DNA from: Lyophyllum atratum
Taxonomy: Eukaryota; Basidiomycota; Agaricomycetes; Agaricales; Lyophyllaceae
Reading direction: 5' to 3'
Length of the DNA stretch: 64,000 nucleotides
Assembly (NCBI GenBank): GCA_014905825.1
Contig: JACGCN010000014.1
Coordinates: 496,001-560,000 of the forward strand
The translations under genes and the position numbers were made by a program. The notes under the pieces are model-generated. The model was not told the DNA's origin and made no database searches. It saw only the letters and a list, made by a program, of their open reading frames with translations. Positions 2,542-36,800 of the stretch are shown here, piece by piece; within the stretch, counting starts at the first letter, position 1; the number at the start of each line of letters is the position of its first letter.

Positions 2542-3536
2542 ATGCCTCGAAGTGCTCGTCAGATTTACCTGGACAGCATCGCTCCACCCTTACGAATTCC
2601 ACGTTGTCCCAATGGCAATCTCCATGTTGCCAAACTCAGCATGGGCAGTAAAGTCCCCCACAACATCGGTAGACGCTCTTATATGGTAAGTCGTTAATGA
2701 AGTGTTTCCTAGACTTCCGTAACTCATGCTTTTTTAGTGTAAGGCTCAGAATGGCCGCCCTCAATGCAGAAGGCCGGATGAGACTTGGCAGCCTGAACAT
2801 CCACAAGAGGTACAGGACAAGCTCCGGAGGTCCCTCGATGCCTGGGATCGTGAGCAAAAGGCTGGCCAGGCTTTGGAGAAGCTACAGAAGGCACAGCAGG
2901 TAGTCCAATCCTTTACTGCTATTGTGCCTCAAGCACGGGAGGATGCAGACCACCATTTAACTCCAACTACTCCTCGCTCTGATGCGGGTGAGCAACATCA
3001 TGTGCTTGTATGCGTATACATGTGGGTCAGTATCTGATACATTTTATTGTTGTCTAGCTCTAGCTAATGCAAAATAGGAAAACGAAGCCTGTTTTGAACA
3101 CCAAGCACAGTTGAGCAGCGGATCGTATGCCTTGTTCAATGACAAGCAACTCTGTCATGTTACCGGCTTCCCCTACACCGCTTACAGCATTTACGACGCA
3201 TTCAGAGATCGATTTCTTCCACTACCGACCTTCAGCAGCATGGAGGTACAGGATCACGAATTTCTCATCCTTCGCTCATCAACCTTGGACGACGAGGACT
3301 GCCCTGATTTACGCCGCCTGATCACTAACCTTCGTGGTGCAGTCAGGCAAAGTGATCGGTACCTTTCATTATTGTCTAACCAACCCGCAGCGGCCGACGT
3401 TCAAGTTCCCCTTCCAACTCCCTCTACCACTACTTCAGACTCGCCCACTAAACTCGGCAAACGCAAGCCCATTGAAGCGGACGAGGCAGCCGTAGACGTG
3501 GCTTTCATGCATAATACGACTGTAATGACCGTTTAA
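2542..3536 (+). CDS. Unrecognised protein with GRF-like zinc motif and coiled coil
   Basis: Proposed exons are 2542-2685, 2738-3007 (or to 3025) and 3078-3536, all phase 0, for about 290 residues. Intron 1 is a clear GTAAGT...TTTTTAG of 52 nt. The donor of intron 2 is ambiguous (GTATGC at 3008 or GTCAGT at 3026); both keep the frame. The N-terminus has a Cys/His pattern, RCPNG...HNIGRRSYMC...QCRRPDETW, which resembles a GRF zinc finger (C, N-x-GR-x-x-Y-x-C, C, W), a nucleic-acid-binding module; this is my inference and one ligand is uncertain. Residues of about 75-115 are Glu/Lys/Gln-rich and look like a coiled coil. The C-terminal domain is unknown. The last codons and the stop lie inside the left inverted repeat of the neighbouring candidate element. 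Confidence 0.6.
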
Positions 3537-3580
3537 TGGTGGTGCATTATAGCCTATAGTTAACATAGACTGGTAATGCA
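3521..3580. repeat. Left inverted repeat of the candidate KDZ element
   Basis: Read left to right, this stretch aligns with the reverse complement of 17654-17710. The core TGGTGCATTATA (12 of 12) is followed by 22 matches in the next 29 positions, ending in GACTGGTA and TGCA. Outward from the core the match continues more weakly (TAAT-ACC-TTT). The similarity extends beyond the palindrome itself, so it is not simply two copies of the array motif. It overlaps the stop codon of the gene that ends at 3536. Confidence 0.6.
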
Positions 3581-5016
3581 TGAAACTACAAGTGATACTC
3601 CCAATGCAGCCGCTACAGGCCCTGTCCTCACAGCACCTTCGTTCTGTATCACCTGACCGTACCCTATTCCTAGGTGCGACCACTGGCGCCTGCAGCAAGA
3701 CGATGATGCATCACTGCAAGCCAGCGATTTCCCGACGCCTGATGCATTTCTGGGTCCACTCCTCATCTATTATGCATCCAGCACCACGAGCATTCCCACC
3801 CGATGCATTGACCTCAGCCAGCGCCTCCTCGCCTGATGCATCAACCACCCTTTTGCACTTCCTCGATGCATCAGCCACCCTCCAGCACTTCATCGATGCG
3901 GGATGCATCAGCCATTCCAAACCTGAGGCCTGATGCATCAACTCCCCGCCACAACTTTGGCTTCCTCGACGCGATGCATCAACCACCCCTACAGCAATTC
4001 CTCGACCTGAGGGCTGATGCATCACCTGCCCGCCACAACTTCCGTTTCCTCGACGCGATGCATCAGTCGCCCTCCCCCACTTCCTCGACATGTGATGCAT
4101 CAGCCACCCTGATGCATTAGCCGCTCGAAGCCTAATGCATCAACTCCCCGCCCACAACTTCGGCTTCCTCGACGCGATGCATCAACCACCCCTCCAGCAA
4201 TTCCTCAACCTGAGGCCTGATGCATCACCTGCCCGCCACAACTTCTGTTTCCTCGACGCGATGCATCAGTCGCCCTCCCCCACTTCCTCGACATGTGATG
4301 CATCAGCCACCCTGATGCATTAGCCGCTCGAAGCCTAATGCATCAACTCCCCGCCCACAACTTCGGCTTCCTCGACGCGATGCATCAACCACCCCTCCAG
4401 CAATTCGTCAACCTGAGGCCTGATGCATCACCTGCCCGCCACAACTTCTGCCATTTCCTCGACGCGATGCATCAGTCACCCTCCCCCACTTCCTCGACAT
4501 GTGATGCATCAGCCACCCTGATGCATTAGCCGCTCGAAGCCTAATGCATCAACTCCCCGCCACAACTTCGGCTTCCTCAACGCGATGCATCAACCACCCC
4601 TCCAGCAATTCCTCGACCTGAGGGCTGATGCATCACCTGCCCGCCACAACTTCCGTTTCCTCGACGCGATGCATCAGTCGCCCTCCCCCACTTCCTCGAC
4701 ATGTGATGCATCAGCCACCCTGATGCATTAGCCGCTCGAAGCCTAGTGCATCAACTCCCCGCCACAACTTCTGCTTCCTCGACACGATGCATCAGCTGCC
4801 CTCCAGCACTGCCTCGGAACCTGATGCATCGAGCACTGCCAGCACTTCCTCGACGCCTGATGCACCAACCACCCGCCAGAGCTTCTTCACATCCACCTTA
4901 TGCATCACCCGCCCTCCAGCACCTCCTCAACGTCTAATGCATCAGCCTCCCGCCAGCGCTGCCTCGAAGCCTGATGCATCACTAGGTGCGCCGGCGCTTC
5001 GTCATTGCATGATGCA
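3575..5016. repeat. Palindromic minisatellite array A with ~203-bp higher-order unit
   Basis: About 38 copies of an ATGCAT core (by eye), mostly inside the 10-bp palindromes TGATGCATCA or TAATGCATTA, spaced about 15-45 bp apart. From 3933 the array is organised as a higher-order tandem repeat. Units begin at about 3933, 4135, 4338, 4544 and 4746 (spacing 202-206 bp), each carrying six palindromes and the same intervening C-rich spacers. Copies differ by a few substitutions and small indels. The flanks (3575-3930 and 4790-5016) hold the same palindrome with diverged spacers. Short open frames across it are by-products of the repeat, not genes. Confidence 0.9.
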
Positions 5017-5040
5017 TTAATAGCCCTCGGTACCCGAGAT

Positions 5041-5325
5041 CGAGTAATTTTGGCATCCAATTACTATTACTACACAATTATACTTGTAAATCAGTGCCTT
5101 GTGGGTCGTGAATGTCATCGACACTTTAAACTCAAGTGGCCGATGAACACTGTCTTACACATTAAGACATATATATTGTATGTGTAGCAAGAAAACAAGA
5201 TGTACAAGATAATCAACAAGAATACGAGGAATCAAGACGCGGGATGATATCAGCAAGAATAGATCAACGAGATGCGAGCAACGAGATGGGCAGCAAGAGG
5301 TTAACAGAATGTCAGCAAGAATAGA
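5041..5325. other. Spacer with purine-rich short repeats
   Basis: No gene. The right half is purine-rich and contains a near-duplicate of TCAGCAAGAATAGATCAA at about 5250 and 5310, plus several diverged AGCAAGA/AACGAGATG variants. It forms the 3' flank of the minus-strand gene that follows. Confidence 0.5.
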
Positions 5326-8300
5326 TCAATAAGATGAAAGTAACAGGTCGAGCAACAATAGAGTAGCAAGATAGGGTATGGGTCCAAAGACATCGACAGA
5401 AGCCCAGATCAAGAAGAACCTAGAAAAGAGAACATCAGTTCGATTTCTTGGCCCTGTCGTAGCCATGTCATGATCAGTTGAGGAGCTCGACAGAAGTATG
5501 GAAAAGTACTTACCGTTTCGATGCACCTGATGCATTTTCCTTGGCCGCGCGCTTACGAGTCGGCGGCATCAGTTTCTCGAAGCATTGATACACGTCGTTG
5601 ACGCATGCGCGCCAATGCGGCTCCGATGTGTCTTGCCACTGCGACCCAGAGTTCATGCATTGCCCCCACCACACCAGCATCGTCATCACCGAGACCATCC
5701 CGTTTGGTCCGCCTTTCCGCAATGCCGCCCAATCCTCGATGCTCGACACGTCCAGCTCAGGGGAGTCGTATATCGGTTTCGGCAGCACCTCAGTGGTCTG
5801 GCGAAAGGCGGGTTGCATGCTCTTCCACCAAGCCATGACCGCGTACCCGAACTCGAGCGGATCTTGTATAGCTGGCGTGGATGCGTATGCCCGAACACCA
5901 CCGCGACCCTTCGCAACCCACTTGGCCCACTCCTCGGGCCGGGTCTTTGTTGACGGCAGGGCTCCCTTCGCATGTGACCCCATTGCATCCTCAAACCTGA
6001 CCCACGCTCCCACGCATTTTGCCCACTCATTGCCAAGATCGCGCGTCAACAAATGAGCCTCCGCGGCGACTGCCCAGGTTGGTCGCTCTGTCGGTACCTG
6101 CTCCGATTCCATGCCAGGAGGAACATTCTCCTTATTGGAGGAGTCGAGCGACAGCTTTGTCACGGACCCGATCTCGTTCATCTTATCAGCTCGGGTTGAA
6201 GGAATGATGTGTCGCCCAGAGCGGGAACGTGACTGCGCAGAAGATGATGCATCAGTGTTTGCATTTGCCGCGATCCCAAGGACACCAAGGGAAGGTGCGG
6301 GGACGGGACCAGCAGGGAGAGATGGCGCAATAATGGGAAGGGGGAGGGGAACCCGATCTTCGAGGCCGGTATTTGGCATTGGGATAGGAGTGGTGCTGGT
6401 AGGTAAATGAGCCTCGAGGCCGACGGCGGCGGAGGAGATCGGATGGGCGGTTGGAGGAGGCGTGGTGTGAGCGAATAGATTTGGTTGTGTAGAGAACATG
6501 TCGAGATGAGACGAAGGCAGGGTTGGCAATGCGGCATTGGGCGGCATGACCCCTGGAAAGGGCATGGGAACCAAATTAGGGCCCGAGGGGGGGAGAGTGA
6601 ATGCATCAAACCAGGCGAGATCGGCGGAGAAGTCCTGAGGCCATTGATAATTGTCTGGCCCCCCCCATGCGTTCTCTTTCGAAGGCGGCACTCCCTCGTT
6701 GAGGCTCTCAAGGAACGCTGAGAGTTCGGGATTGCTGTCGAAGGGTGGCATATCGCTCCCATGAGACAGCGGAATGATGGGATCGGATGGAGTGCTGAAT
6801 TCGGGAGCGGGAGCGGGAATGGGAACAGGAATGGGAGAAGGGGCAACGAATTCCATGCGGTGTTCCAGGCCCGGCGATGCCGCTAATCCTGGGTGGGTGG
6901 TTGCCGGGGCAGTCGGATGGGAAGGCATCGCCGTCACCGGTTCAACCACGACGGTGGGAGCGGTTAATGCATCAGTAGTACCACGACCTGGAGATTACCC
7001 ATTCAAAACAATGCGAAGAGATTTTAGCAAAAGGCTCACCAACTAGGCTGGTCACTTGTTCACCAGCGATCACAGGACCAACTTGGATAGTTGATGCATC
7101 ACTCGTTGAAGGGCCTGGAGATTAATGTGTTAGTTTAATGCCCATACTCTTGCATTACTACTCGCCTAACGTGCTTGACGATGCATCAGCCAATTGAAGC
7201 GCGGCCTTATCTACCTCTGTAACGAGCACCATACCCTCATCATCTTCCTTCACCCCGCCACTATCGACATCCATACTCGCATTATCATCCTTGGATCGGC
7301 TGTCCAGAGCGCGCGAACGACGGACTTCCGGTGCTGAGGAATCGGTCAGTTACATAGCCCTCAAACATGGTTGTCACTTACAATACACGTGGCACAAGAA
7401 GTCGGTATACGGCTCCATGTATGCCTTCTCGAAGTCCGGATGGGCGTGTTGGAATTGTTTCCCGCTGTCGGTCTCGCCGACATGATAACTAGAAGGCGCG
7501 TATTTGAGAGCTAAATATAAAGATATAGATCATTTGCACTTACCTTAAAACAGAGACCTCCCCGCCATCGGATGGGTCAGGTCCGCCCATAAGAATGGAG
7601 AAAGACCAGCCAGTCTTCGCAGCCAGCGTGTGGAGAAAACGTCCAAGGTGTCTGGGGCAGTCTTCAATTGCTCTGTGGAAAGATTTAGAATCAGCGGTCA
7701 GCTTATTTCCCACCACCGGCCTCGGAGAAAATCACTTACTCCATGAACTGTTCATTAGTACGTTCCTCGGGTTCCAACAAAGTCTCTTTTTTGGCGATCA
7801 ACTCCGCCAGCCGCTCTTCCACCTTGGCCTTGACATCCTCATCTTCTTCCGCCTCCCACAACCGTTTAGTGAGTGCATTTCTCAGAACGAGCTTGTCACC
7901 TCGCCCCAGATTCAACCTAGACGCCTCTTCCTCCACCAACGGCTTAATTTTGTCGTCATAATATAGCTTGGAATATATTTCGGTTTTCTGGAGTAAGCGG
8001 GTACGGCCGCCGTGATCGCCAAGCGCCTTGGGCTGCTTTTCAACAGCTGTACGGGCCCTTGGTGTTGTTCTCCATCGAAACCAGGTTTTTAATTGCTAAT
8101 CAATCGGGACTTTAGTCAATTATAGTCTAGCCAGCTATTAATATGTGATGAACAAACCTGTCTTCGTGACTGAACCGCTCCTTTAAGGTTTTCGGTGTCT
8201 TCAGGAGAATAGTCGGATTTAGCCTTGTCGGGGAACACAACCTTACACTCCGGATATTCTCCTGCCCAATCCTCATAGAGGTTTGCCCAGAACCGAGTGT

Positions 8301-8400
8301 AAGCTGGTGACTTTTTATCCTTTCGAGCAGTGCGGTAGTCCTCCAAACGTTCTTCGAGGAATGCATATTGCTCGGCCGTAGTCCAGGACGTTCCGGGCAT
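5326..8400 (-). CDS. Eight-exon protein of unknown function inside the candidate element
   Basis: Exons, 5' to 3' on the minus strand: 8400-8158, 8095-7740, 7672-7544, 7488-7382, 7333-7166, 7114-7040, 6987-5510 (851 residues, stop TAA at 5512-5510). All junction phases agree. The intron after 7166 needs a GC donor (GCGAGT). The stop overlaps a good donor (CG|GTAAGT); splicing 5513-5420 would add exon 5419-5326 and a hydrophobic 30-residue tail. N-terminal exons encode a compact domain (starts MPGTSWTTAEQYAF; later KTWFRWRT and SFSILMGGPDPSDGGEVSVL). The middle is Pro/Ser/Ala-rich linker. The C-terminal domain is Trp-rich (AVMAWWKSMQPAF, RKGGPNGMVSVMTMLVWWG). I recall similar proteins in mushroom genomes but know no function. 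Several exons carry the palindrome in frame as Asp-Ala-Ser. Confidence 0.75.
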
Positions 8401-8719
8401 CTAAGGACGGATCGATGATTAAGCGTTTCGGGAGCAAATGATAAAAATAACACACGATCTACAATGTTTCAGGGACTCAGGGTGCAAAAAAAAGACCGAG
8501 ATTGTCCCCGGGTTGACCGGTCCTGAAGCGGCATGAGATGCCGGCTTGAACCTTACTATTTCAACTGACCAGTTGGCGTGATCTAGCCAATCAAAATCAT
8601 CACATCAGTGTTTGCATCAAGCCACCCCGCAGGAGTATAAAGTTCGGGTAAACCAATCTACAAGGTCCCATCCCCACTTGAACTAGTACCCCGATCTTTG
8701 ATCAAGTTACCTCGCTCCC
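8401..8719. promoter_or_regulatory. Divergent promoter between two element genes
   Basis: This 319-bp gap separates the start codons of two divergently transcribed genes. On the plus-strand side there is a CCAAT box at 8587-8591 and a TATA box (TATAAAG) at 8636-8642, about 78 bp upstream of the ATG at 8720. No comparably clear TATA box was seen toward the minus-strand gene. Confidence 0.5.
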
Positions 8720-9535
8720 ATGACCAACACTAACACCGCCAAGGATGATGGAGCTGCGCTGGCTCCCTCCTCCATGACACTTGCCGAGGTCCTGACCCTC
8801 CTGACCCTCGGTGGCGGTAAGTCATCAGGCCCTTTTAGAAATAGTCTTAATCACACATTTTTTAGGGTTAACGCTCCATGTTGGTGAACCCGCATCAACC
8901 ACCACCCTGGCCGCCACCCCTGGTCCCTTCGCCCCCGCCGCTAATCCGCCTCCCTCGTCTGGAGGAGGTGGTGGTGGTAGTGGTGTTGCAACCGCAACCG
9001 CGACTTGTAAGTATCGCCGTTCTCACAGCGCCGTGGAATCTGCTACTTACAAGTTACATACTGTAGCCGTCCCAATTTCTGCAGTTGCAGCGGGTGAGCA
9101 GTACCCTTGCTCCTCCTGTGCAGCCGCTGGCTGTCTCCCCCCGCCTCCGACTGTGGGCAGAGATGAGGCTGGAAACGGCGGATGCGAGGCGTCTGGATCA
9201 GCCAATCCGGCTCAGGGCGGCAATGTGGCCGAGGAGAACGGTATGCACCCCAATTTTACCTTTCGATCCAAGTCTTACAAAACCTGTCAGACGAAGTCAA
9301 CACGGGACGGTGGTATGCTGTCACGAGGGGCCGGCAGGTCGGTGTCTTCTCCGACTGGTGAGTCATCAACACAATTTGCTTGAAACTGCTTGACCTTGTC
9401 CACCCAGGTCGGAAGTTGCCCCACTCGTTGTCGGTGTTGGGAGCGCGGTGTTTTAACCGCTATGCCACACATTCCCTCGCTGTCCGTGCCTATGCCCGCG
9501 CGATGAGTCTCGGCAACGTCATGCCCATCCCCTAA
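8720..9535 (+). CDS. Viroplasmin / RNase H1 N-terminal-like protein, frameshifted at the end
   Basis: Proposed exons are 8720-8816, 8866-9006, 9067-9240, 9291-9357 and from 9408. The N-terminus has MTLAEVLTLLTLGG, then a Gly/Pro/Ala-rich linker. The C-terminal domain matches the viroplasmin/RNase H1-N fold: GRWYAVTRGRQVGVFSDW followed by APLVVGVGSAVF, a small domain that binds RNA-DNA or double-stranded nucleic acid in characterised members. In the given frame translation stops at 9454-9456. The TTTT run at 9451-9454 appears one base too long: in the next frame the domain continues (NRYATHSLAVRAYARAM) to a stop at 9533-9535. This is either a recent frameshift or a homopolymer error. A 30-nt GTGAGC...CAG segment at 9094-9123 could be a micro-intron but is in frame, so I left it exonic. 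Confidence 0.65.
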
Positions 9536-10760
9536 TTTCTTGGACGCTATCTTTTTTGGACTTTGTAGCAGCCTCGTGTACATTTATATCCCACCTTCTT
9601 CGCTGCCCTATCCCCTGCTTCCTGATGCCCTGCTGATATTGTTGTTTGTGCCTGCTTTGCTATGATGTACCTGTCTTTCCTATGATGTGTCTGTCTTTGT
9701 GTGTCGTCGTCGTCTCCCCTCCCCCATCATTGTTTTTAGGCATATCACTACGTATTCCTACACTCCACATGGATCCGTACCCCGCCTATCTCTTCTACCA
9801 TCCCCACACTTCCTTCCCCACCCCACCCCCCACATAAAACTAATATATTGAATTTCTTGAAAATTATCTGTGTGATAAAAGTGTTCAACTCTGTATTGAT
9901 CTGGCGCCGCAGCCATGTTCCTCAAAAGAGAAATGTGGCTGTGCTACACGTGTAAAATGAGGGGCATTTTGGTCAACCTCCATTCCAGAGTTAACCCTCA
10001 AAAGTCACATGTCTACCGATACCCGGTGCTCGGGTCTGGGTCACAGCAGGGTATAGAATTGTATGACCCGGACCCCAACCTATCCGGGTAGGCATACTGC
10101 ACCTGGCCGGGTAGCTGTACCCGTGCTAATCACTATCGACACTGAGCGCAAATTGGGCCTGATCATGAGCGTTCCGACCGAATCGAAGAAGGGGTAATCA
10201 CGATCGAATGTGTTCATTTTTAGAAAAACCACGTCATGGCTAAAAGTAGCCCTCGGACCGTGTTTGCTTGACATCGCCAGCCAATCAGAGAACGAATAAA
10301 TGGCTGCTGAAACCGGCCGCGAAATCATAATGTGAACATAGCGAAGTATTGAGACGGCTTGAGGCTCACTAGTGTATCTCAGGAACCTTCTTACAACTGT
10401 GCCTTTCCACAGAAACCCTTTTGTACACACCCATCACAATACGATCTTTCGCAAAGTGGGCATGAGTAGATCGGTGGTTAGAGCCAAAATCAACCCCACT
10501 GAAGACATTCGTTCATGCATGTCGTTAAACAATGTCTCATTTGAATCATGTTTGAAGTGTATTTAGGTATAATAAAACCACTGAATAGGCCTGAGCACCC
10601 ATGACATGCCTGATATGAACCATGGAAGACCTTTAGTCGTGTTTCTGTAGACTCTCGGCCCTGTACTTATCAAACATTTCGACGCGTGATGAATGAGCCC
10701 GTTATGTATAGCACACATGTACACTAGCAGACAGATACATTGAGGGTTAATGAAGAGTAA
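9536..10760. other. Intergenic stretch inside the candidate element, no gene
   Basis: I found no coding exon. It includes a pyrimidine-rich region (about 9640-9840), a cluster of CGGGT/ACCCG words around 10020-10115 that could form small hairpins, and the motif GAGGGGCATTTTGGTC at 9959-9974, which recurs with one extra base at 17911-17927. The region just before 10760 is the 3' flank of the minus-strand gene. Confidence 0.4.
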
Positions 10761-11498
10761 TTACGACCAACGATCCACGTAGAGACGAAGAAAGGTGTCG
10801 GACCCATCTCGAAGCGAGGCTAGATCCTTCTCTAAATGCCATACACACCGTGCCTCCCACCTCAGCAATTCCATGCCCAACTGACCCAGGATGCTATGAC
10901 CAGGTATACCAACCATTGCCGCCCGTATCTTCTTCCAAAATTCGTGACGGCGAACAAGCTCAGCGTGAAGTTTGATGGCAAAATTCGTGAGGGGTTCCGT
11001 CTTGTACTGACGCAAGCGTTGGGTTTCTGCTTCGTGTTGGCGGCGGCGACGATAGCCATGGAGGGCATCAGCAAGACGATCAGGATGCTTCGGAATGAAA
11101 TGATGCTCGTATGGTGGTAGGCAGTCCCACTTGGCGAGTTCAGAATCGGAATAGTCCGTGTCGTCGAGCGCATCACTGCTTTGAAAAGCCGAGCGAAATA
11201 TGCGTGATTGTGGAGTCGGAAAATCTGTGAGCGCTATAAGCTCTGCGGAAAGAGAAGGGTTGGAGAAGGCTGGGAGGGAGACTTTCGGTGGCTTCGGCGG
11301 TGCCAGTGCTTTGCGAAGTTCGTATGCCCGTTGGTTCTGCGCTTTCCGCAATGTTTGGCCGCTAGCCCACCAGCTTGAGATACAGCTATGCAGAGAAACC
11401 TGAATGACATACTGTGCTGTTGATGCAGCTTCCTTTCTACGACGGTTGGCCCCTGCAAACTTCTCATCCTGTGTGAGATATTTCGCACGCCGGCCCAT
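10761..11498 (-). CDS. Small basic, bZIP-basic-region-like protein paired with the transposase
   Basis: Two exons, 11498-11413 and 11361-10761, are joined by a 51-nt phase-2 intron (GTATGT...GCTAG), giving 228 residues. The N-terminus (MGRRAKYLTQDEKFAGANRR) is strongly basic. After the intron comes TLRKAQNQRAYELRKA, which resembles the basic DNA-contact region of fungal bZIP factors (R-x-x-QN-R-A-x-R), although no clear leucine zipper follows. The C-terminal half contains acidic and Trp-containing segments (DDTDYSDSELAKWDCLPPYE) and helical, Arg-rich stretches. The intron length is a multiple of three, so a longer unspliced frame exists upstream to 11633; I chose the ATG at 11498 because the sequence from there looks like a genuine basic N-terminus. 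It is head-to-head with the transposase, 249 bp between start codons, so co-expression is likely (inference). Confidence 0.65.
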   Translation of the reverse strand: MGRRAKYLTQDEKFAGANRRRKEAASTAQYVIQVSLHSCISSWWASGQTLRKAQNQRAYELRKALAPPKPPKVSLPAFSNPSLSAELIALTDFPTPQSRIFRSAFQSSDALDDTDYSDSELAKWDCLPPYEHHFIPKHPDRLADALHGYRRRRQHEAETQRLRQYKTEPLTNFAIKLHAELVRRHEFWKKIRAAMVGIPGHSILGQLGMELLRWEARCVWHLEKDLASLRDGSDTFLRLYVDRWS

Positions 11499-11747
11499 GA
11501 TTCCACAACAGCAAAAGGCGATGAGAGCATCCCAAGGGCGCCCAAGAAAATGACCAGAGAATGCCCAGGCGCTGACAGGCAAGTAATTCAGTTTCGCGAT
11601 GTCTTGATGGATCGAGTCCAGCATCGTTCTCAACTTGGATCCTTTGGGAGACGTTCTCTTTGGTCGTATTTGATTCAGATGTCAATCGGCAGGGTTTTCG
11701 CGTCCTCTGCCCTCCCTCAACTTGTTGCCTACCTGTTCATTGTCACT

Positions 11748-14700
11748 ATGTCAACAAAGCGACGAAAGTCATACAAATTTACTGTTCACAAAACTGCGTC
11801 TCAGCACTCTGCAAAGACCGAGGAACTGCGACATAAAAGCACTTGTTTTTCAACCGTCAAGGGTCAGGTCCGCGTGTCCACATCTTTCCTGTCAACAAGG
11901 TCCAAAATCACCCAGGACACAACATCCCTGGTCGATACAGATCAGCCTCAGGCTCCTTCAGACAGTCACAACTACAACGAAGATGAATTGTTAGATCCAG
12001 CTTATATCGAGCATCTTGACGAAATTTCGATAGCACCTGAGCGCGTTCCTCGAAAACGTACAGCTGCGGTATGTGACTTCTATCTTGCATACAAACCTGA
12101 CTAGTATTTAATGAGCTTTTTAGGACGAACCATTAAACCTGTGGCTACCCGAACGTGAGACATATCTGGAGGAGTTCATCACGCTCGAGGGTCGGGGACA
12201 TAATGCATCAGATATCTGTCCCACCTGTCCGGAGAAAAGGGAAGCGGTCTATGAATGTCTGGACTGTTTTTGTCGACAGCTGCAATGTAAGGACTGTACT
12301 GTGACTGAGCATCTAGCCAATCCCCTGCATCGGATACGGGTGAGTACTTATCTGGATTAAATACGGCATGAGCTGATACATGATTTAGAAATGGAATGGC
12401 GTGTTCTTTGTTAAGCAGACGCTGAAGGAATTGGGGTTAAGGGTGCAGTTAGGCCACGCCCGCGGAGCCAGATGTGCCAACCCACAACCCTGTGCGGGTG
12501 ACGATTTCACCGTGATCGATACACACTCGATCCACGCCATTGGTCTGGACTTTTGCGGCTGTGGTGAATCTAACCAACTTCACACAGTCCAGCTCCTTCG
12601 TCACAGGCTTTACCCTGCCACAACGCTATATCCGAAGACTGCGACGACGTTCAGAGCCCTTGAGGTCTTTGAACTGTTATCCTATGTGTCGAAAGTATCA
12701 GTATTCGAATATTACCAGGCGTTGGCTCGTCTCACAGACAACACAGGCACGGATCCACCCAATGTGAGTTCAGTTTAGTTCCACTATATTGGTACCATTT
12801 TATTCATGGATCGACGGGTAGGATCGCTATCCGAGTCTCCTGCTCAGTGTCCGTGAATGGCGCTATCTTAAGCTGATGAAACGTTCTGCTCGAGGACACG
12901 ACCCCAGTGGTCCCACGGCTGCGACAAAAGAAGGCGAATGTGCCGTTTTATGTCCCGCCTGCCCGCAACCCGGTAAGAACCTACCGGACGGCTGGGAGGA
13001 TGCACCACCTGGAATGCGGTATGTCCCCGTATTCCATCAATTACGCAGTGCTTGACGACAGCAACAGGTTCTTGTATGCTCTGTTTCTTGCCATTGACGC
13101 GAATTTCCGGTTGAAGCGCAAGCATGTCTCAAATGACAGAGTGGATCCCGATCTAGGGCAGGGCTCCGCATACTTCGTAGAGCAGAAGGGATACAAGGCT
13201 CATCTGGAGAAGCATAAGGACGAGACTGAACCCGTTTGTTTATTTTCCTGATTTTCTTACCTCAGCTAATTTGAATCTTCGCTCTATACAGAAATCCACC
13301 TGCTCGAGACACGACGCCGTCAATCTCTCAAATGCCAAACCCGGTCAATCCCACGCTGCGACAGGTGTTGGAACTGTGGAGTGTGCACGTCATAATATGA
13401 AACGACCGAATGCAGTTGGGGATCTCCAGTTTGGTGAAAGGTACGTCGTTGACTTTGATCCAGGTCCCTTAAGTCCTAATGTACTCGTCGTCAGGTACTG
13501 TAATATGGACTACCTATTCTGGCGGAGCCTCTTCACGTCAAAGCTCAAGATGATCTTCGTCTCGTACGACATCGCGTGTCAGTGGTCCATCAACCTCCAA
13601 CGGCGCATGTTCGATCTCGATCACGAATTCTTCATGTACAACGGCGAGACATACATCAAATTTCTGGTGCCGAAGTTCCACCTACCAGCACATGTTGCTC
13701 CGTGCCGCACGAGGTACTCATTCAACTGGACACCCGGGGTCGGCCGGACGGACGGGGAGGCCCCGGAGCGAGGATGGGCTGAGGCCAACCCATTGGCTGC
13801 GAGCACAAAGGAGATGGGTCCAGGGTCTCGGCGGGATACACTAGATGCCCATTTCGGCGACTACAACTGGCGAAAAGTTGTCGCGATGGGTGAGAACATC
13901 AAATCTTCTCCATCATCCTTTGAATATCACTAACTCTGTTAACTCTAGGTGCTACCCTCCTCCGCAAGTTACGATCTGCAGCAAACGACATGGCCGTTCA
14001 CACCATCGCTCACGAGGAGCTCACGGCTTCGCTCCCCCCTGAGACCGTGCTCGAATGGACGAAGGAAGTTGAAGCATGGGAAAATGACCCGCAAATTGAC
14101 CCGAAGAAGCCGACCCCATATGATCTCAAGGTAGCAGGTGAATAGAACACGTTTACCATCTCATACCCAGCTAATAGTCTGTATCAAGTTCCCACTCAAG
14201 CAGCAGTACGCCTTCAGATGGCAGAATCTGAGGCTGATGATCTGGCATCGGGGAAGGATGTCGCACTCGACGTCAACATCACGGCAAGTGTCCTCATCGC
14301 GACAGGTCTTGACCTTGAGGAAGAGCAGTGAGTATCGCCTTTCTTTTGCCGTCCACGCGACCACGCGGTCCACACGCACTGCGGCCTTTGCTGTGATGCA
14401 TCATTGATGCATCACCATACTTTCCATGGGCATCCAAATCCCGAATGTCTGACTGATGCATCAGAATTACACCTAAATTAACTTAATCCTTCTCAGACGT
14501 TCTATCAAGACCGACACTTCGAAAGTATGGCTACACGCGCAAGACCGCCAGAAGACCCGGCTGCAGCTTCGAAATAACGCCCTTTCACGTAAAATTGTCA
14601 ACTGGACCCAAGCACAGCAGCTTTACATCCCCGCCGTCGTCGCATTACGGAGAATTGATGCCCATGAGGCGCAAGCGAAGAAGTCGGCGCTCCCTATCCA

Positions 14701-15570
14701 CGAATACCGCTTATGGCTCCCGTCCCAGATCCAATCAAAGGTTCACTTTGACCTACATCTGGCGGAGATCGAGTGGAAGCTGCGCATAGCCCAGGCGGAC
14801 GAGGCTCTCGATGGGCTGCGCCGTAACCTGCAGATTCGGTCATACCTCTTCAAATTCAAAGACCAGAACGTCCGCGGCCAACATGCGAACACCCGAGCTC
14901 GTAACGCTATCGCTACTGTCCAAACTAGAATTGATGGGTGTGCAGAAGATTACAGAGCCGCCCACTCTGCATTATTAGCGTTGTCGCCACTTCTCAAGAA
15001 GGTGGGCTGGCGGGACCAGCTACTTTCTTTAGCTGCAGAGGATATTCGAGAACTCGCCGGCGAGGAAGGTGTGGGTCAGGGCAAGACTGTTATGTCATGG
15101 ATATGGACCACGAGGGGTGTGGCGGGTATTGGCGCGGACGATGAAGTATTCCGCGATGGTACGTTGTAATGCATCACCGAGCTATGTGTATATGCTGATC
15201 GGTTGGTGCATCAGCGCTTCGTATCGAATGGTGTAAATCTAGGGCGCGTGCCATGCGATTTACCGAGGAGGTCGAACTTCTATCGGAGGAAATGGAGCGG
15301 GTCCTGCGATTTTTCAAATGGCAGCAGGAGTCGTGGAGGGCCAAAGCGGAGTATTGGTTGAATGATATTGTTGGCAGCACTCCGCGTGGCGAAGGGTTAC
15401 GAGGGTATGCTGAGCGTCAAGCCGCTGTTCGGGAAGCTATGTCCGCATGCTTCGCCAAGCTGTGGCTTCAAGCACCAGGCTTTATCCAGCAGGCGCGCGA
15501 ACAGATAGCAGCTGCGGCCTCGGGTACTACACAGGTGTCCTTGGCAGCCCATGGTGGCTCGCCCTCTTGA
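11748..15570 (+). CDS. KDZ-family transposase with CxC2-like cysteine cluster, apparently intact
   Basis: Eleven exons fit with consistent phases: 11748-12068, 12124-12339, 12389-12763, 12822-13018, 13068-13233, 13292-13440, 13495-13889, 13949-14137, 14189-14327, 14497-15158 and 15215-15570. They give 1054 residues with no internal stop. After a basic N-terminus (MSTKRRKSYKF), residues of about 131-178 form a CxC2-like cysteine/histidine cluster (ICPTCPEKREAVYECLDC, then CKDC and H residues). The KDZ catalytic core follows: FVSYDIACQW (Asp about 500, Cys 503), then GRTDGEAPERGWAEANPLA with acidic residues, and EMGPGSRRDTLDAHFGDYNW. KDZ proteins are DNA-cutting transposases abundant in mushroom genomes. 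Most introns are 49-65 nt; the one at 14328-14496 is 169 nt and contains three palindromic 10-mers. Confidence 0.93.
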
Positions 15571-15756
15571 TATACATATTCCTACCTGTCTTTTCACTCA
15601 TTTGTAAATTTATCATTGATACTCCATATGTCTCAACGAAACCAGAAAGAAGCGACCAGTCAACAAGCAAGCGGGGTCAATAGATCCCATCTGAGTCTGT
15701 CTGCCCTCATAGACGTGATGTAAGAATGCGAAGATGCGAAGACGAGCACCACCTGG

Positions 15757-17600
15757 CAGATAATGCATGATGTGACACATTGTAATACATTACTACAGTG
15801 GGGGTGATGCATTACTAGTGTCCAAAGCGGCGAAGGAATTGAGCGTTTTCACGAGGATATCCCCTTGACGGGATCTGTCAATAAATGCATTACCGGCGTG
15901 CAAAAGGGCGAGAAAGGAACCTCAAGGATCAAGTAATGCATCACTGTTCGGATGAGGGGTGATGCATTATTACTGGCGCAAGGGGCAGGGAAGGAATTGA
16001 GGTTTGATTTCGATTTGTCAAGGATGCGCATCGTATGTATCTAAATTTAGTGAGATAGTCTAGCAATACATCACCCTTGGGATGAGCGGAGCACGATGCG
16101 GCTAGGGTAATGCATTACCGGCGTGCAAAAGGGCGAGGAAGGAACCTCAAGGATCAAGTAATGCATCACTGTCCGGATGAGGGGTGATGCATTATTACTG
16201 GCGCAAGGGGCAGGGAAGGAATTGAGGTTTGATTTCGATTTGTCAAGGATGCGCATCGTATGTATCTAAATTTAGTAAGGTAGTCTAGCAATGCATCACT
16301 CTTGGGATGATCGGAGCGTGATGCGGAGGGAAGGGGGGAGGGGGGTAATGCATCACCAGCATGCAAAAGGGCGTGGAAGGAGCCCTCAGGATCAAGTAAT
16401 GCATTACTCTTCGCATGAGCAGAGCATGATGTGGAGCCGTCGGGTAATGGGCGCCAAGGGCAGGGAAGGAAGTGAGGTTCGATCTTGTTTGACAGGTTCT
16501 GTCAAGACGCACATCGCATGTATCTAAATTTATCAGTATAGATGGAGGGAGGGATCGTAGTACGGAGGCATGATGCATTACTGGTCAGCAAGCGTCAATC
16601 ATGCATCTAATCAGGATAAAGGGAGCATGATGCATTACTGGCGTCTGATGCATTAGCCAAGGGGCAGGGGGCTGTGTGGTGATGATTTTGACATCGAAGT
16701 CAATGATTCAAGAATGCATTACTTATGCAAGGAGTTTGATGCATCACTAGGTTGATATGCATTAGGAGCGAGACGTGGGGTGGAGGTTGACAGATAATGC
16801 ATTACTACGAGATTGTTGATGCATCACTGGTTAAGTGAGAGCCCGGGCTATGCGGCAATGATTTCGACGTCGAAGTCAATAATCCAATAATGCATTACTT
16901 ATGCAAGGACCTTGATGCATCAGTAGGTTGGTACGCGTTAGGAGTGAGACTGAAGCGGGGTAGAGGTTGGCAGATAACAATGCATTACTACGAGATCGAG
17001 ATCGTTGATGCATCTCTGGCCAAGGGAGAGCGGGAAGTGGAGTAGAGGTGGGCAGATAATAATGCATTACTACGAGATCGAGATCGTTGATGCATCTCTG
17101 GCCAAGGGAGAGCGGGCTGTGCAGCAATGCTTTCGATGTTCCGAGGTCGAAATCCATAATGCATTAATGGCGCGCCATGATGCATCAACGATATATTGAA
17201 GGGCTAGTGGTGCAACATCGGATAATGCATCAGAGACTATCCGAGGAGGCATTGACGGTGATGCATTGGATGATCAGAAGGGGGGGTCTGATACTAATGC
17301 ATTAGCTTACAATCCGCTAGCGATGTGCCGAGGTCAGAATCCATGATGCATCAATGGCGTGCCATGATGCATCAACGATAGATTGAAGGGCTAGTGGTGC
17401 AAGGTCGGATAATGCATTAGAGACTGTCTGAGGAGACATCGGGGGTAAGTAAGTGATGCATCCTTGAGAGTCTGAGAGCCACAAGTCATGCATGACGCCT
17501 TTGATGCCATACAGGTAGGAGGATCAGAGGGGGGGGTCTGATACTAATGCATTAGCAATTCGCTAGGCTAGGACTACGCACATGATGCATCATGGGCTCG
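15757..17600. repeat. Palindromic minisatellite array B
   Basis: About 40 ATGCAT cores by eye, mostly TAATGCATTA, TGATGCATCA or hybrid TGATGCATTA/TAATGCATCA forms. A unit of about 225 bp is duplicated at about 15885-16065 and 16108-16290, with a more diverged third version to about 16520. From about 16700 to 17560 a different spacer set recurs, with GAGATCGAGATCGTTGATG and GGGGGGGTCTGATACTAATG each seen twice. The spacers are purine-rich on this strand, whereas those of array A are pyrimidine-rich, so the two arrays are in opposite sense, as expected of the two arms of one element. No gene is supported in it. Confidence 0.85.
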
Positions 17601-17653
17601 TGGCAGGAGGTGAAGGAGAATGGTATGGTGGGGCAGGTCGAACGGTAATATAA

Positions 17654-17717
17654 TGCAATACCAGTCAATGCTTACTACAGTTTATAATGCACCACACGAA
17701 AATGGTAATTAGCGTAG
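17654..17717. repeat. Right inverted repeat of the candidate KDZ element
   Basis: The reverse complement of this stretch contains TGGTGCATTATA, GACTGGTA and TTGCA in the same order and spacing as 3521-3580. Outside it the left and right flanks diverge, with only patchy similarity (TGCAT, TACG). Confidence 0.6.
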
Positions 17718-18717
17718 ATGATGCACTCTACCCACAGGGTCTGGTGGACGAGGAGAATGAGTTCGTTGAGGGAAGTAGTTCACAGCCCATGGAAGGAAGG
17801 TCGGATCGGATCAAGCGTAGAAGACAATATCGGTCACTTGGTTTCATAGATCTCACCAAATAATATTTAGAATTTCCATCTTTTGAAGATGTTGAGGAGT
17901 GTACATGAACGAGGGGTCATTTTGGTCTTGTCTAACCTGAAAAAACACCTCATTACTTATCGTAGTACTGTGAATCAAATAAATGAGGTCATGGTCACAG
18001 ATAACTTTGAAATATTGAACGAGCCAGACATGACCTTACAGAATTACAGACTGCCTGCCAAGGTCACCGTGTAAGTCAAATTTGGTTCGAATTCCCTGCA
18101 CGAGCAACTTGCAAATGGTGTTGAGCGCTTCCGGAGATCGAGTTGCTTGGTTGATACGCCCATCTCTGTCAAGTATGCACCATGAAGAAGGGGTATGAAT
18201 GATATTATACGGTAGTAACATACGACAGAGACAACACGAAACAAGGACCTCAAAAAAGATATAGGAGGGCGGCCACACGCGGATCCCGGGTGGCCGAGGA
18301 CTGGCTACGGAGACGGAATATTGGTGGTTTCGAGAGTTTTGACTGACGGCATAGGGCGCGTCGGAGGGAATCGAAGGAGCACGCAAACAATGGCTTTCTA
18401 CACAACTGCCAGATAAATATACTGGAGCAGGCGACGTAAATACTGCGTGATTAGTGGTCGATGTTGGTCGGTGATGCGAAACAGGAACCGGTGCTGGTCC
18501 CGAGAGCGAGAAAATAAAGAAGAGAGAAAGTAAAAGAACTGGAAAGCGGAAGGAGGATGCGATATGATACAGTGATTATGTGTGTGTGCAGTGTGCGGGT
18601 AGAATGGGGAATGAACGTCATCATCGGCGCGCTTCGAGTACGCCGATGACGAATGCCGTTCATGACGAGTATAGGTCAGTATGCGAGGTCGGCGTGAGTA
18701 AGCATGCAGTGGGTCGT
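17718..18717. other. Region outside the element, no gene recognised
   Basis: No coding region could be supported. The short open frames here lack recognisable composition. GAGGGGTCATTTTGGTC at 17911-17927 echoes a motif at 9959. The right end is the 3' flank of the PL14-like remnant. Confidence 0.4.
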
Positions 18718-23554: not shown

Positions 23555-24016
23555 TTGCCGAACCGCGACGCGATGGTGGATTGGGCCAGAGAGTTTGGTT
23601 GGGCAGGGATGCCGGAGGTCATCGGCGACGGTGAGCTGACGGAGCTCTCGGATGATGACGCTGGCAGTATGCCGTCCCTGCTGAGCGTCAGTGATTCCTC
23701 GGAGGAGAGTGACTCTGAGGACAGCGACTTCAATGAGTTGCAGGTCGACTGTGCTGCGTTCCGCACAGGTCTGTGCCGCCCGCTTGATTTGGAATCCACG
23801 TCGTCGGATGATGAACCCAATGGTTTTGGGTTGCTGGTGCCTGTAGATGGTGCTGCCGAGGAGGAACCGAAGGCGGATCGCGTTGCGCGTTGGGTTGAGG
23901 AGACCGCAGCTGTCTTGAGGGATGGAGATACGGGTGACGACCCATTCTCTCCATGGATGTGGCGGCCTTGGTGGCCGACCTTGCCGCTGCTGGGTCTGAC
24001 ATTCGTCGGGTGGTAG
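23555..24016 (+). CDS. Acidic ORF preceding copia pol (gag-end-like), copy 1
   Basis: A 153-residue open frame starting MPNRDAMVDWAREFGWAG is strongly acidic (EESDSEDSD, EEEPKADR) and ends in WPTLPLLGLTFVGW. It overlaps the start of the copia protease-integrase frame in a different phase. The end DDPFSP followed by an abrupt Trp-rich tail suggests that the natural reading shifts into the pol frame at about 23950. I infer it is the end of a copia gag or a gag-pol linker; no zinc knuckle is visible. The ATG choice is arbitrary. Confidence 0.4.
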   Translation: MPNRDAMVDWAREFGWAGMPEVIGDGELTELSDDDAGSMPSLLSVSDSSEESDSEDSDFNELQVDCAAFRTGLCRPLDLESTSSDDEPNGFGLLVPVDGAAEEEPKADRVARWVEETAAVLRDGDTGDDPFSPWMWRPWWPTLPLLGLTFVGW

Positions 24017-26073
24017 CTTTCACCGCCACCGACAAGACGCTCGCGTTGATGGCTGCTCCTGCGAAAGGAAATAGTCAGTGTTATGAGTTATATGATTCGG
24101 GGGCCTCGCACAATATGTCCCCGTATCGCGAGGAGTTTGTTTCCTTCCAAGACATCCAGACACGCCAGATGACAGCCGCAAATCAGCAGGATTTTTCGGC
24201 TACAGGTATAGGGGACATGATTGTGTCAGTCCCAAATGGTTCGACGACGACAAAGATACGTCTTACCGGCGTATTGTACACCCCCGCGATCGGCTTCACC
24301 CTCGTCTCGATTGGGCGAATTGACGACGCCGGATATTTTTGCACTTTCGGTGGAGGCCGCTGCGAGATCCGTACGGGGAACGGAGACTTGGTTGGCACTA
24401 TCCCGAAGGCCAAGGGCCTTTATCGCGTCTTTCATGACTGCGACAGACCATCAGCAAATGTCGCCATACAAAAGCTCTCGGTGATGGACTTACATCGCCG
24501 CATGGGGCACATCCAACCTCGAGCCGCGCGGGAGCTCGTTACCAAGGGTTTGGTCAAGGGGATTGAGCTCGTCGAGAGTGACGAGCCGGTGGAGTGCAAT
24601 GCCTGCGTGCAGGCAAAGGCGACGCGGAAGCCTGTTCCGAAGGTTCGCGAGGGCGAACGAGCCACGGAGTTTGGCCAGGAAGTATGGTCGGACATCTGTG
24701 GGCCTGCCAGTACTACGAGTCTGGGAGGACGGAGGTACTACATCAGTTTTACGGACGATTGCACGAGATGGACAATTGTTTACCTTCTCCGCTTCAAGAG
24801 CGAGGCCTTCGCTGCCTACAAAGTCTTCGAGGCTTGGGTCTTGGCTCACTTGAAGGCCCGTATCTTGTGCCTCCATGTCGACCGCGGAGGTGAATACCTC
24901 GACGGGGAATTCGTCGCGTATCTCGAGCTGCAGGGGACTCATCAAAAGCTGGCCGTGCATGACACGCATGAGGAGAACGGAGTCTCCGAACACGTCAACA
25001 GGATCTTGCTTGAGAAGGTCCGAGCCCTTCTCATCGCAAGTGGTCTACCGAAATTCCTGTGGGCTGAGGCTCTAATACACGCTGTCTGGCTCAAGAATCG
25101 CACGTCGACGAAAGCCCTAAACGGCCGTACTCCCTACGAAGCTGTCTACAACGAGGTTCCCGACCTACACGACCTTCCGGAGTGGGGTTGCCATGTGTGG
25201 GTGCACGATACGTCGAGCGGGAAGCTGGGTGTTCGCGCGAAGGCTGGGCGCTGGGTCGGCTTCGACCAGGCCAGCAAGGGGCACCGCGTGTATTGGCCGG
25301 ATAAGCGGAGCGTGACCGTCGAGCGGGAGGTCCGCTTCTCCGAGCAGAAAATGGCGGCAGTGGATGAGGAGGCAGTCGTGCTCGAGGGGGAGGAAGCGGC
25401 TGGTGGCGAGCCCGACTCTGAACCTGAAGCAATTAAGTCAGCTCCGACTACTCCCAAAACAGTTCCGAAAAACCTACCTGAGCCGCCGCCTGCACCGTGT
25501 GCTGTTCGTATTCGCAAACCGACCCAGTATGTCAAAGACATTCGAGACGGCACCGCCACGACCCACGCGCTACCCTCGAGGAAGGGTTTACCTCCCGGAT
25601 TACAAGCCCCGCCCCCTGACGAGGAGGCTGTACCCAAGGTTGCCGAGGATAAGGGGGAGTTGGAGGAGGAGATCGATGGGGCGGCGATGGCTGCGGAGAT
25701 GTCGGACGCGCACGGGCTGGAACCGAGGAGTTTGGCTGAGGCGAAGAAGAGCCCTGCGTGGCCGCAGTGGCTCGAGGCGATCGAGTACGAGAGACGTGCG
25801 CTCGAGGCGCATAAGACCTGGAGGTTGGAGAAGCCGCCGCCGGGCGCGAACATCGTTGGCTGCCGATGGGTCTTCGCTATCAAGCGCGACGCCGCCGGCG
25901 CCATCACGCGTTACCGCGCGCGACTCGTTGCCCAGGGGTTCTCGCAGGTTCCGGGGGTCGATTTCTTCGATACATTTGCGCCGGTTGCGAAGATGGCTTC
26001 GATCCGGACGATCCTCGCATTCGCCGCACGCATGGACTGCGAGATCCACCAGGTTGATGTCAAGAGTGCCTAG
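23953..26073 (+). CDS. Ty1/copia Pol fragment: protease-integrase-start of RT, copy 1
   Basis: A 706-residue frame. The aspartic protease motif YDSGASHNM has its Asp at about residue 48. The GAG-pre-integrase zinc motif is LHRRMGH...CNAC. The integrase core has Asp 246 (VWSDICGP), Asp 310 (HVDRGGEY) and Glu 346 (GVSEHVNR), an exact DD35E spacing. A Pro/Glu-rich linker follows. The reverse transcriptase then begins (NIVGCRWVFAIKRD, ARLVAQGFSQVPGVDFFDTF) but stops right after IHQVDVKSA, before the catalytic YxDD box. RT and RNase H are therefore missing, no LTRs were found, and the element is a truncated, non-autonomous relic. Its integrase frame is nevertheless fully open in this copy. Confidence 0.85.
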   Translation: MDVAALVADLAAAGSDIRRVVAFTATDKTLALMAAPAKGNSQCYELYDSGASHNMSPYREEFVSFQDIQTRQMTAANQQDFSATGIGDMIVSVPNGSTTTKIRLTGVLYTPAIGFTLVSIGRIDDAGYFCTFGGGRCEIRTGNGDLVGTIPKAKGLYRVFHDCDRPSANVAIQKLSVMDLHRRMGHIQPRAARELVTKGLVKGIELVESDEPVECNACVQAKATRKPVPKVREGERATEFGQEVWSDICGPASTTSLGGRRYYISFTDDCTRWTIVYLLRFKSEAFAAYKVFEAWVLAHLKARILCLHVDRGGEYLDGEFVAYLELQGTHQKLAVHDTHEENGVSEHVNRILLEKVRALLIASGLPKFLWAEALIHAVWLKNRTSTKALNGRTPYEAVYNEVPDLHDLPEWGCHVWVHDTSSGKLGVRAKAGRWVGFDQASKGHRVYWPDKRSVTVEREVRFSEQKMAAVDEEAVVLEGEEAAGGEPDSEPEAIKSAPTTPKTVPKNLPEPPPAPCAVRIRKPTQYVKDIRDGTATTHALPSRKGLPPGLQAPPPDEEAVPKVAEDKGELEEEIDGAAMAAEMSDAHGLEPRSLAEAKKSPAWPQWLEAIEYERRALEAHKTWRLEKPPPGANIVGCRWVFAIKRDAAGAITRYRARLVAQGFSQVPGVDFFDTFAPVAKMASIRTILAFAARMDCEIHQVDVKSA

Positions 26074-33833: not shown

Positions 33834-36800
33834 GTGAACTATATCATGACAGATACCATCGTCACGACCGGCACTGGACTTTCGGAAAGCTCGTTGTCAG
33901 CCCTGACACCACTCCCTGATTCCGACCATAGCACGAGCAACACGGAATTCGAACCTCCTTCCCTTATCGCTTTTCAGGAAAGTGTCGGGCCGGATGAGAT
34001 CACTTCCGTACCTATGCCCGTCAGGTTGGACCTTCCATCGCTTAAAGCATTCCAAACCTATCGAACGAATCAATCTCTTGTAGATCGGCGTACCACCGCT
34101 CTTCGGCTCGGATCCGAGGCTTTCAATAAGCTTTATCTGCGCAATACTACGCGCGCGTTCTCTCGCAGGCAGCTTCGGGACGTTTTCGATCAGGAATCCA
34201 TACTATTGGATGAAATCTTCTCGAAGGTTTTGACTGTCACGACCGAGGACGACGGCCACGCCTATGCTATCAAGCGTGAAACCTACACGACGCTTCTCGG
34301 TCTTTTACTTAAGATCAAGACAAAGTTCGGGGACATCCTGCTAGCAAATGGAATACCTATTCCGTTGTTACCCTCATGGGGAGCTAGTGGAAACGTTAGT
34401 GAGTTCTATTACGCCAACGATTTCGAGATCCTAGCCATCTGTTTTAGGACGGAGGTAGAAAGATTTCTACATATTTTTGACGAATATTATAACTTTCAAA
34501 CTGATGTTCCTCGTAACTCGGATTTAGTCGCGCGCTCGGTCGCAACAACTCCATCACCAGAGATCCCTCGAGTTATTCGTGACCCTCCTCCACATCTTAA
34601 TCGCCCTCAGGCATTACCGGTTGATGAAAGACGAATTCTTCATTCAAGGTTAGAGACCGGCGGGCCACGAACACGAAGAACCTCGAACATCTATAATCAA
34701 GGTGATCAGACGGCCAGAACGTTACAGAATCGGAGAAATCAACGGCTTACCGCTCGGCCACCCACGTCTAGGATGCGCGAAGTTCTCGACAACATTGGAG
34801 AGACTTTCGATCCCCAGATCAATCCTACTAGAAGCACCCCAATCTCTTCCGCATCGCGCGCTCGACACCGTCCCGGACCACCCGACGACGATCCCAGCGA
34901 CGATGAGGATGATCAAGGCGACTTTGGTAGTAATGGAGGAAGGCGGCCTAATCATCGATTCCCGCAAGGTAACTCTCGGCCCGATCCTAACGCTCAACGC
35001 AATGGCGGAGGTCCTCCGGACGATGATCCCAGCGACGACGATCAGAACGGCGGAGGTAACAGAAGAAATGGACCACCTAGAGCAGACCGTCCACTCGCGC
35101 AACGGCCTCAGCCTGAACCACATTTCGACTTCAAGCTGAAGTTCGAAAACGTACCTAAATGGGACGGGAATACAGACACCATCGTAAGATGGCTTTCGAA
35201 GGTTAATAACCTTGCCCGAATGTCAGGTACGGTTTTCACTCAGCTAGGCACCGTGGTTCCTCGAAGGTTCGAAGGTAGTGCGGAAACATGGTACTGGTCT
35301 CTACCGGGAAACTACCGCGAGGAAGTGGAACGTAACTGGGATACGCTCCGTATGTGCATCTCTTCATACTTTATGAACAGAAAATGGCTAGACAAACAGA
35401 AGGCCCGAGCGATACGCGCAAGTTACCGAGAAGCAGGAAACTCTCGCGAAACACCAAGCGAGTATTACATTCGGAAAGCCGAATTACTCAATACCGTGTA
35501 CACCATGGACGACTCAGAAATTATTCTTGAGGTCATGGAAGGTGCGCCTGCGAGCTGGAATACTATTCTTACCACTCAGTTATACGTCGACGTCATTGAA
35601 TTCCAAGCTGCTATCCGATTCCATGGGGATACACTCATGCGATTAGATTCTGCGACATCAAATTCTTATCGGTCGGATAGGTACGAACAGAATAATTTCA
35701 GGAACCAGGCTGCTGCCAACCGAGACACGCCCCGCGGAGGTTTCAACACGCGAGTAAACTTAGTAGGCGCTTCCCGAACGCTCGAGCCACCTAAGTATCC
35801 TAAAGATGATGCAAACATCTCCCGAAGATCTGCTACTCCTAAGGATAAAGGAGCAAGGCCTTGTCGACATTGCGGGTAGCGAACTTCACTGGGATAATGA
35901 GTGCAAGTACGCTTTTAAAGGAAGTCGAGAAGCTCGAGCTAATCTAGTGGTAACCTCGGAAGAAGAAACCCAGGCTCAGAGAAGCTACGATGACCTTTAC
36001 TACAGTCTCGACTCTGATAGTGAGGATTTTGATTTGCCCCTCCAGACTACCGCCGCCATTCGTGACGACTCAGCGGACCTGGAGGGATCTTCTTTCGAAT
36101 CCGAGGAACAAGGCTCGCAGCCACCCACTACTCGCTCCCTCAATACCACCTGCGCTCCTTATACTTACAAACAGCCCCTAAACCGGAGATCACGAAGACG
36201 TCTAGCAAGGGATATCTCTGCCCGAAACTATCTCGTTCAGACAGATGGTTCGTCAGAAACTCCTAAAGCCACTATTGAGCTAAAGCGATTGATGTCTAGA
36301 CCCCCAGGTTGCGCATTTTTAGGAGCACAAGCTACGCAGACAACGGCCACGGTCGGAGGCGTCGATCTCAACCCCATGGCTGTAATCATCGACTCTGGTT
36401 CTGACATAACGTTGATCTCACAAGACATGTTCGACGCGCTTACCGCGAAACCTAAACTACGATTCGGACAAAAGATCAATCTAATCCAGGTAACGGGTAC
36501 CAGCACGATTTCTGGCTTCATCAACTTGGATCTATTCTTCCACGCGGACGAGGGACCCATCAAGATCAATGTTGAAGCCTACGTTGTTAAAGGAATGACA
36601 ACTCCCTTCATCCTAGGTAACGATTTCGCCGACCAATACCAGATCTCCGTACAACGCACTGAGGGTAGGAGTTTCATCACCTTCGGGGATTGCAACCGAT
36701 CTATCCCAGTAGAGAACTCAACCTCTCCCACTCTCTCCGATGACACTCGCCATGCATTCAAGATCAGATCACAGCAGGAAATCTACGCACGCATCCCTCG

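Follow-up and report, generated by a model that had tools for sequence, protein, structure and literature searches.

The stretch of DNA analysed here, in the following called the window, comprises 64,000 nucleotides of contig C46 of Lyophyllum atratum (JACGCN010000014.1; other contigs of the same genome are named C65, C75, C119 and so on). It harbours a complete transposon of the KDZ superfamily, 14,260 bp in length, which extends from position 3487 to 17746 (no strand assigned) and has the termini CAGCC...CTGGTG. These limits are given by a target-site duplication (TSD), by a collinear copy on C119 and by a host reading frame that is restored when the flanks are joined. The element contains four genes in the order A (−), B (+), C (−) and KDZ transposase gene (+), which corrects the arrangement in a preliminary description of the locus, and inverted arrays of a short palindrome lie inside both of its ends.

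Ends, target site and interrupted host gene

Both flanks of the element carry the heptanucleotide GACGAGG on the + strand (3480..3486 and 17747..17753). Two diverged relatives of the element are present on C119; one of them, C119a, is flanked by perfect copies of TCCTCGT and the other, C119b, by ACATTGT and ACGTTGT (6/7). In this 7-bp register all three elements possess 5'-CA..TG-3' termini. The ends had previously been set at 3521 and 17717, and homology with the two C119 loci extends beyond both positions. Counted inward from the termini, the two ends agree at 14 of their first 26 nt. Further inside, 36 nt from the left and 35 nt from the right terminus, the diverged arms of an inverted repeat are located (3523..3589, +; 17645..17711, −). 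The arms comprise 67 nt with 76% complementarity, and the best ungapped score between the terminal 200-mers was 35, whereas 150 pairs drawn at random from the remainder of the window reached 13 at most and 150 shuffles 14. The inverted repeat of the preliminary description is consequently real, and the mobile unit which that description delimited by inverted repeats together with arrays has been confirmed.

The element interrupts a host gene, the 5' part of which occupies 2542..3486 and the 3' end 17754..17863 (both +, stop codon 17861-17863). When the flanks are joined in silico, the end of the open reading frame is restored (...EADEENEFVEGSSSQPM...RSLGFIDLTK*), and the joined frame aligns through GFIDLT with an intact paralogue on C75 (51% identity over 170 columns). 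If the host gene is read on into the element, the alignment with this paralogue ends at the insertion point. The restored frame, matching the paralogue, therefore shows a past insertion into an exon; a search of the genome for an allelic empty site found none. Judged by its coordinates (127.2-128.2 kb of C75), the paralogue is enclosed by the two clusters of palindromes and by the 13-bp inverted repeat that mark a KDZ locus (122.1-132.9 kb), and because of this position the gene hit by the insertion may be a member of a KDZ-linked family. None of seven motifs tried from the C75 locus occurs in the flanks of the element in the window, and one 7-mer is present inside the element.

Genes of the element and its relatives

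The KDZ transposase gene (11748..15570, +) has 11 predicted exons and encodes a protein of 1054 amino acids with CxC2 and KDZ domains. The Pfam matches to KDZ (PF18758; E 2.5e-66, profile positions 1-217 of 217) and CxC2 (PF18803; E 1e-40) agree with the earlier notion of a complete transposase, and by its domains the element is a member of the KDZ superfamily. Head-to-head with this gene lies gene C (10761..11624, −), coding for 287 amino acids without any Pfam match. Gene B (8720..9540, +) contains an RNase H1 N-terminal/Cauli_VI domain, to our knowledge an unusual cargo for a DNA transposon. Only the first 32 of 44 profile positions are matched before a stop and, as judged by eye, the remainder of the domain follows in another frame, so that gene B appears to be either broken or spliced otherwise. 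The multi-exon gene A (5510..8400, −) encodes about 770 amino acids or more (splicing approximate) with a weakly homeodomain-like N-terminal region (WFRWR). No match to the TET/JBP profiles PF12851 and PF20515 was obtained in the window or in either C119 element; in the whole genome PF12851 was found at 18 places and PF20515 once, all of them elsewhere. Four PF12851 matches (C46:630 kb, C130:257 kb, C63:138 kb and C76:372 kb) have a KDZ match at a distance of about 10-14 kb, three of these KDZ matches being weak, and TET-linked KDZ elements may thus exist in this genome.

The relative C119a (C119:375323-393557, 18,235 bp) aligns collinearly with the window copy over A, B, C and KDZ, the order of the four genes being kept. 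At the KDZ end the alignment reaches the last base of both copies and at the gene-A end it starts from base 16 of both. C119a is a single collinear unit and the element in the window is likewise one element; the term composite, as used before, is not supported. In C119b, A and C were recognised by protein match. A search with the terminal pattern (at most two mismatches) gave six matches in the genome, corresponding to the two ends of the three elements, and none in the control; other copies with the same ends, for which a search had been proposed, do exist. The five genomic matches of gene C are also confined to the three elements. C119a exceeds the window copy by about 4 kb in the interval that separates gene A from the array at its end (C119, ~387.6-392.4 kb), possibly owing to a nested insertion. 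Furthermore, in both C119 elements the terminal sequence of the KDZ end (GACCCT..., TTGCAT) is found again, directly oriented, at the gene-A end (C119:393433-393505 and C119:1587987-1588062); by eye this second copy sits just inside the inverted repeat, and it was not seen in the window copy.

There are 109 KDZ matches in this genome. Among the 120 of 1521 matches of the KDZ protein that were listed, L. atratum records show 98% and 83% identity and a Crassisporium funariophilum protein 78%. Outside this genome gene C was detected in C. funariophilum, with four matching proteins in all. With 78% for KDZ and 60% for gene C, the C. funariophilum relatives are almost as similar as the Lyophyllum copies are to one another; the closest Tricholoma KDZ relatives among the matches listed show about 60% identity. 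This patchy distribution could reflect either horizontal transfer or lineages of great age.

Palindrome arrays and gene A

The palindromes are built around ATGCAT and constitute a left array at the gene-A end (3704..5019, +), with C-rich spacers and partly organised as a 203-bp tandem repeat, and a right array at the KDZ end (15763..17592, −) with G-rich spacers. All 55 TRATGCATYA sites of the window are inside the element (span 3704-17592), in agreement with the arrays reported earlier near both ends. For the hexamer ATGCAT, 91 copies were counted within the element vs three in the other 49,727 bp of the window, the expectation from an order-1 Markov model being 6.75 on average with a maximum of 15 in 200. 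Its copies are distributed over the left (39) and right (38) end regions, gene A (8), the B region (1) and the KDZ gene (5, of which 4 are in introns), with none in gene C. The opposite strand bias noticed before is reflected in GC skews of −0.38 (left) and +0.28 (right). In parts, the arrays consist of genuine tandem repeats, with units of 203 bp (x4.4), 225 bp (x2.0) and 82 bp (x2.0).

The preliminary description had named arrays without a transposase elsewhere in the genome as a finding that would speak against it. The paired-palindrome pattern has 53 matches on the plus strand, and the 50 of them that were listed are all within the three KDZ elements. The exception is a 62-bp fragment (C108:1862965-1863026) with 89% likeness to the left array, located away from the listed KDZ places of that contig; its 3-kb locus has one TRATGCATYA and no cluster, and it is at most a relic.

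Five further KDZ loci (C75, C65, C141, C117 and C71) were examined for palindromic 8-mers with three copies within 250 bp. Such clusters are present at three of them (C75, C65 and C141), with palindromes unlike that of the window, and absent from two long window stretches, five short other loci and 200 shuffles. The clearest case is C65, where TGTTTGCAAACA is found four times beside the 3' end of KDZ and three times on the far side of gene A, with another three, mirrored, toward a facing second copy. At C65:131-158 kb two KDZ elements of the same family are arranged as facing inverted copies, and about 0.7 kb separates their gene-A end arrays. On C75, GATTAATC occurs three times near one end, twice near the other and once inside, and C141 has four copies of TTCGCGAA at ~33-bp spacing. 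The arrays of other palindromes in related elements suggest a family-specific recognition code. On C117, TTTGCAAA is found twice on either side of KDZ, which is suggestive only of an end palindrome.

Gene A gave 25 matches, which fall into 13 loci: the three elements and ten further, distant places (26-33% identity); these match lists are lower bounds. In all 13 loci gene A is upstream of and divergent from the nearest KDZ, at a distance of 5.9-11.4 kb, and 2.4% of the genome is no more than 12.5 kb away from one of the 66 KDZ places used, a chance figure that overstates independence, since the loci represent about six families (judged by similar open frames and scores) and not 13 independent cases. 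Members of the gene-A family share the sequence SPE... followed by RQ.QLRTWFRWR, which resembles homeodomain helices 2-3. In a comparison with PDB sequences homeodomains accounted for eight of 14 matches, all in one stretch (61-100). This likeness is weak and is taken as a lead, no more.

Elsewhere in the window a tandem duplication was observed (24022-45193 vs 42813-64000; 99.8% identity over 21 kb), in which a frame of Copia type (RVT_2, 23938-26070) is present together with one of Gypsy/chromodomain type (35767-40992). Repeats of 607 bp at 33017, 42210, 51824 and 61021 look like long terminal repeats of a nested element.

Known systems and a possible end-recognition code

Kyakuja elements of the KDZ superfamily in Agaricomycetes are characterised by a 7-bp TSD and 5'-CA..TG-3' termini (PMC12730594), both of which, together with the KDZ transposase, are found in the element described here. 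It can be called Kyakuja-like, an assignment set by termini and TSD against the published description. However, Kyakuja-1_LB and -2_LB of Laccaria are described as lacking terminal inverted repeats (TIRs) and as carriers of TET/JBP (PMC12730594), whereas the window element has the 76% inverted repeat about 36 nt inside its ends, gave no TET/JBP match and contains palindrome arrays and gene A. In the text of this paper the terms 'subterminal' and 'accessory' are absent and the sole 'palindrom' refers to the ends of TET/JBP gene segments. The experimentally mobile KDZ1-KDZ3 of Cryptococcus (~9-11 kb) likewise encode a KDZ transposase that bears a cysteine cluster of the CxC type (CxC1 in their case, CxC2 in the window), but their TIRs measure 139-241 bp and their TSDs 4-8 bp (PMC12810828); 'subterminal' does not appear in that paper's text. 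En/Spm and other CACTA transposons share with the window element repeat arrays inside both ends, motifs that vary between families and a transposase accompanied by a separate gene, here for a candidate DNA-binding protein. The window element differs by its KDZ transposase, its missing CACTA ends, a TSD of 7 instead of 3 bp and the palindromic unit (PMC2613891). Membership in CACTA/EnSpm, defined by an EnSpm-type transposase and a TSD of 2-5 bp, was rejected on account of the KDZ transposase and the TSD of 7 (or 8) bp. What had been proposed as an undescribed system is, in its termini, TSD and transposase, a Kyakuja-like member of a known superfamily; palindromic subterminal arrays or a gene-A partner for KDZ are not described in the literature searched, which did not include the founding KDZ paper and supplementary files.

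With a probability of roughly three in four, we consider the element to be a single Kyakuja-like KDZ cut-and-paste transposon with a 7-bp TSD in a host exon, whose arrays are family-specific binding sites with the gene-A protein as the likeliest binder. The binding role is inferred from the anatomy, because the latter resembles that of En/Spm, in which TNPA recognises the subterminal repeats and TNPD is the transposase, motif and binder varying between families (PMC2613891). Accordingly built arrays could gather protein at both ends, with TGATGCATCA as the candidate recognition palindrome of the window family, and this protein would then allow the KDZ transposase to pair and cut both ends. The most likely binder would be the homeodomain-like, element-encoded gene-A protein, which would occupy the dyad as a dimer; the CxC2 zinc cluster of the KDZ protein is the second candidate. 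Each KDZ family would use its own palindrome.

Several observations weigh against this interpretation. Gene A was detected at 13 loci vs 66 KDZ places, most of which have no gene-A match. Its homeodomain matches are individually non-significant (best E 0.043), and four of the eight belong to one protein, Hox-B13. Gene A and its relatives have no Pfam match above the cut-off (only EF-1_beta_acid at 0.13 and DUF1690 at 0.055), the AlphaFold model is poor (mean pLDDT, the predicted local distance difference test, 43) and fold searches yielded no trustworthy match. The KDZ loci on C117 and C71 failed the cluster test (2/5), and second palindrome clusters on C65 (CAAATTTG) and C141 (GATATATC) are not assignable to element ends. 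As to the TSD, position 3479 matches 17746 too, and the resulting 8-bp reading fits the window element and C119a, with 6/8 only in C119b. Finally, the window copy may be inactive because gene B looks frame-broken.

It is possible, if rather unlikely, that the KDZ transposase itself binds the palindromes through CxC2, leaving gene A to some other function, for instance in regulation or against silencing. According to its description, CxC2 is a cysteine cluster that accompanies KDZ transposases, the C75 locus has palindrome clusters and no detected gene A, and the hAT transposase Kat1 requires subterminal repeats (PMC4763223). However, the divergent linkage of gene A in all loci where it was detected and its homeodomain-like stretch, albeit weak, favour a role of the gene-A protein. 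Less probable still are operators, by which an element- or host-encoded transcription factor would control the genes of the element. The palindromes scattered over gene A and over the introns and one exon of KDZ would fit such a function, as would the fact that TNPA of En/Spm regulates as well (PMC2613891), but 77 of the 91 ATGCAT are in the two end regions, an operator alone needs no copy at both ends, and the strand asymmetry is directed inward equally at both ends of the window element and C119a. Neutral minisatellites grown by slippage, as the tandem units might indicate, are very improbable, since at either end, and in other copies too, the palindromic core reappears with different spacers and at different intervals, and clusters of other palindromes exist at other KDZ loci.

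The passages on KDZ that were consulted give no account of the way in which a KDZ transposase recognises where its element begins and ends. With defined ends, a candidate dyad recognition site and a candidate reader, this question becomes directly testable. A clustered family-specific palindrome flanking KDZ and gene A on both sides is suggested as a rule for delimiting KDZ elements. More tentatively, KDZ transposons might be two-component systems, in which the palindrome code of each family and its homeodomain-like gene-A reader co-diverge and thereby may isolate families from each other among the dozens of KDZ copies in a genome.

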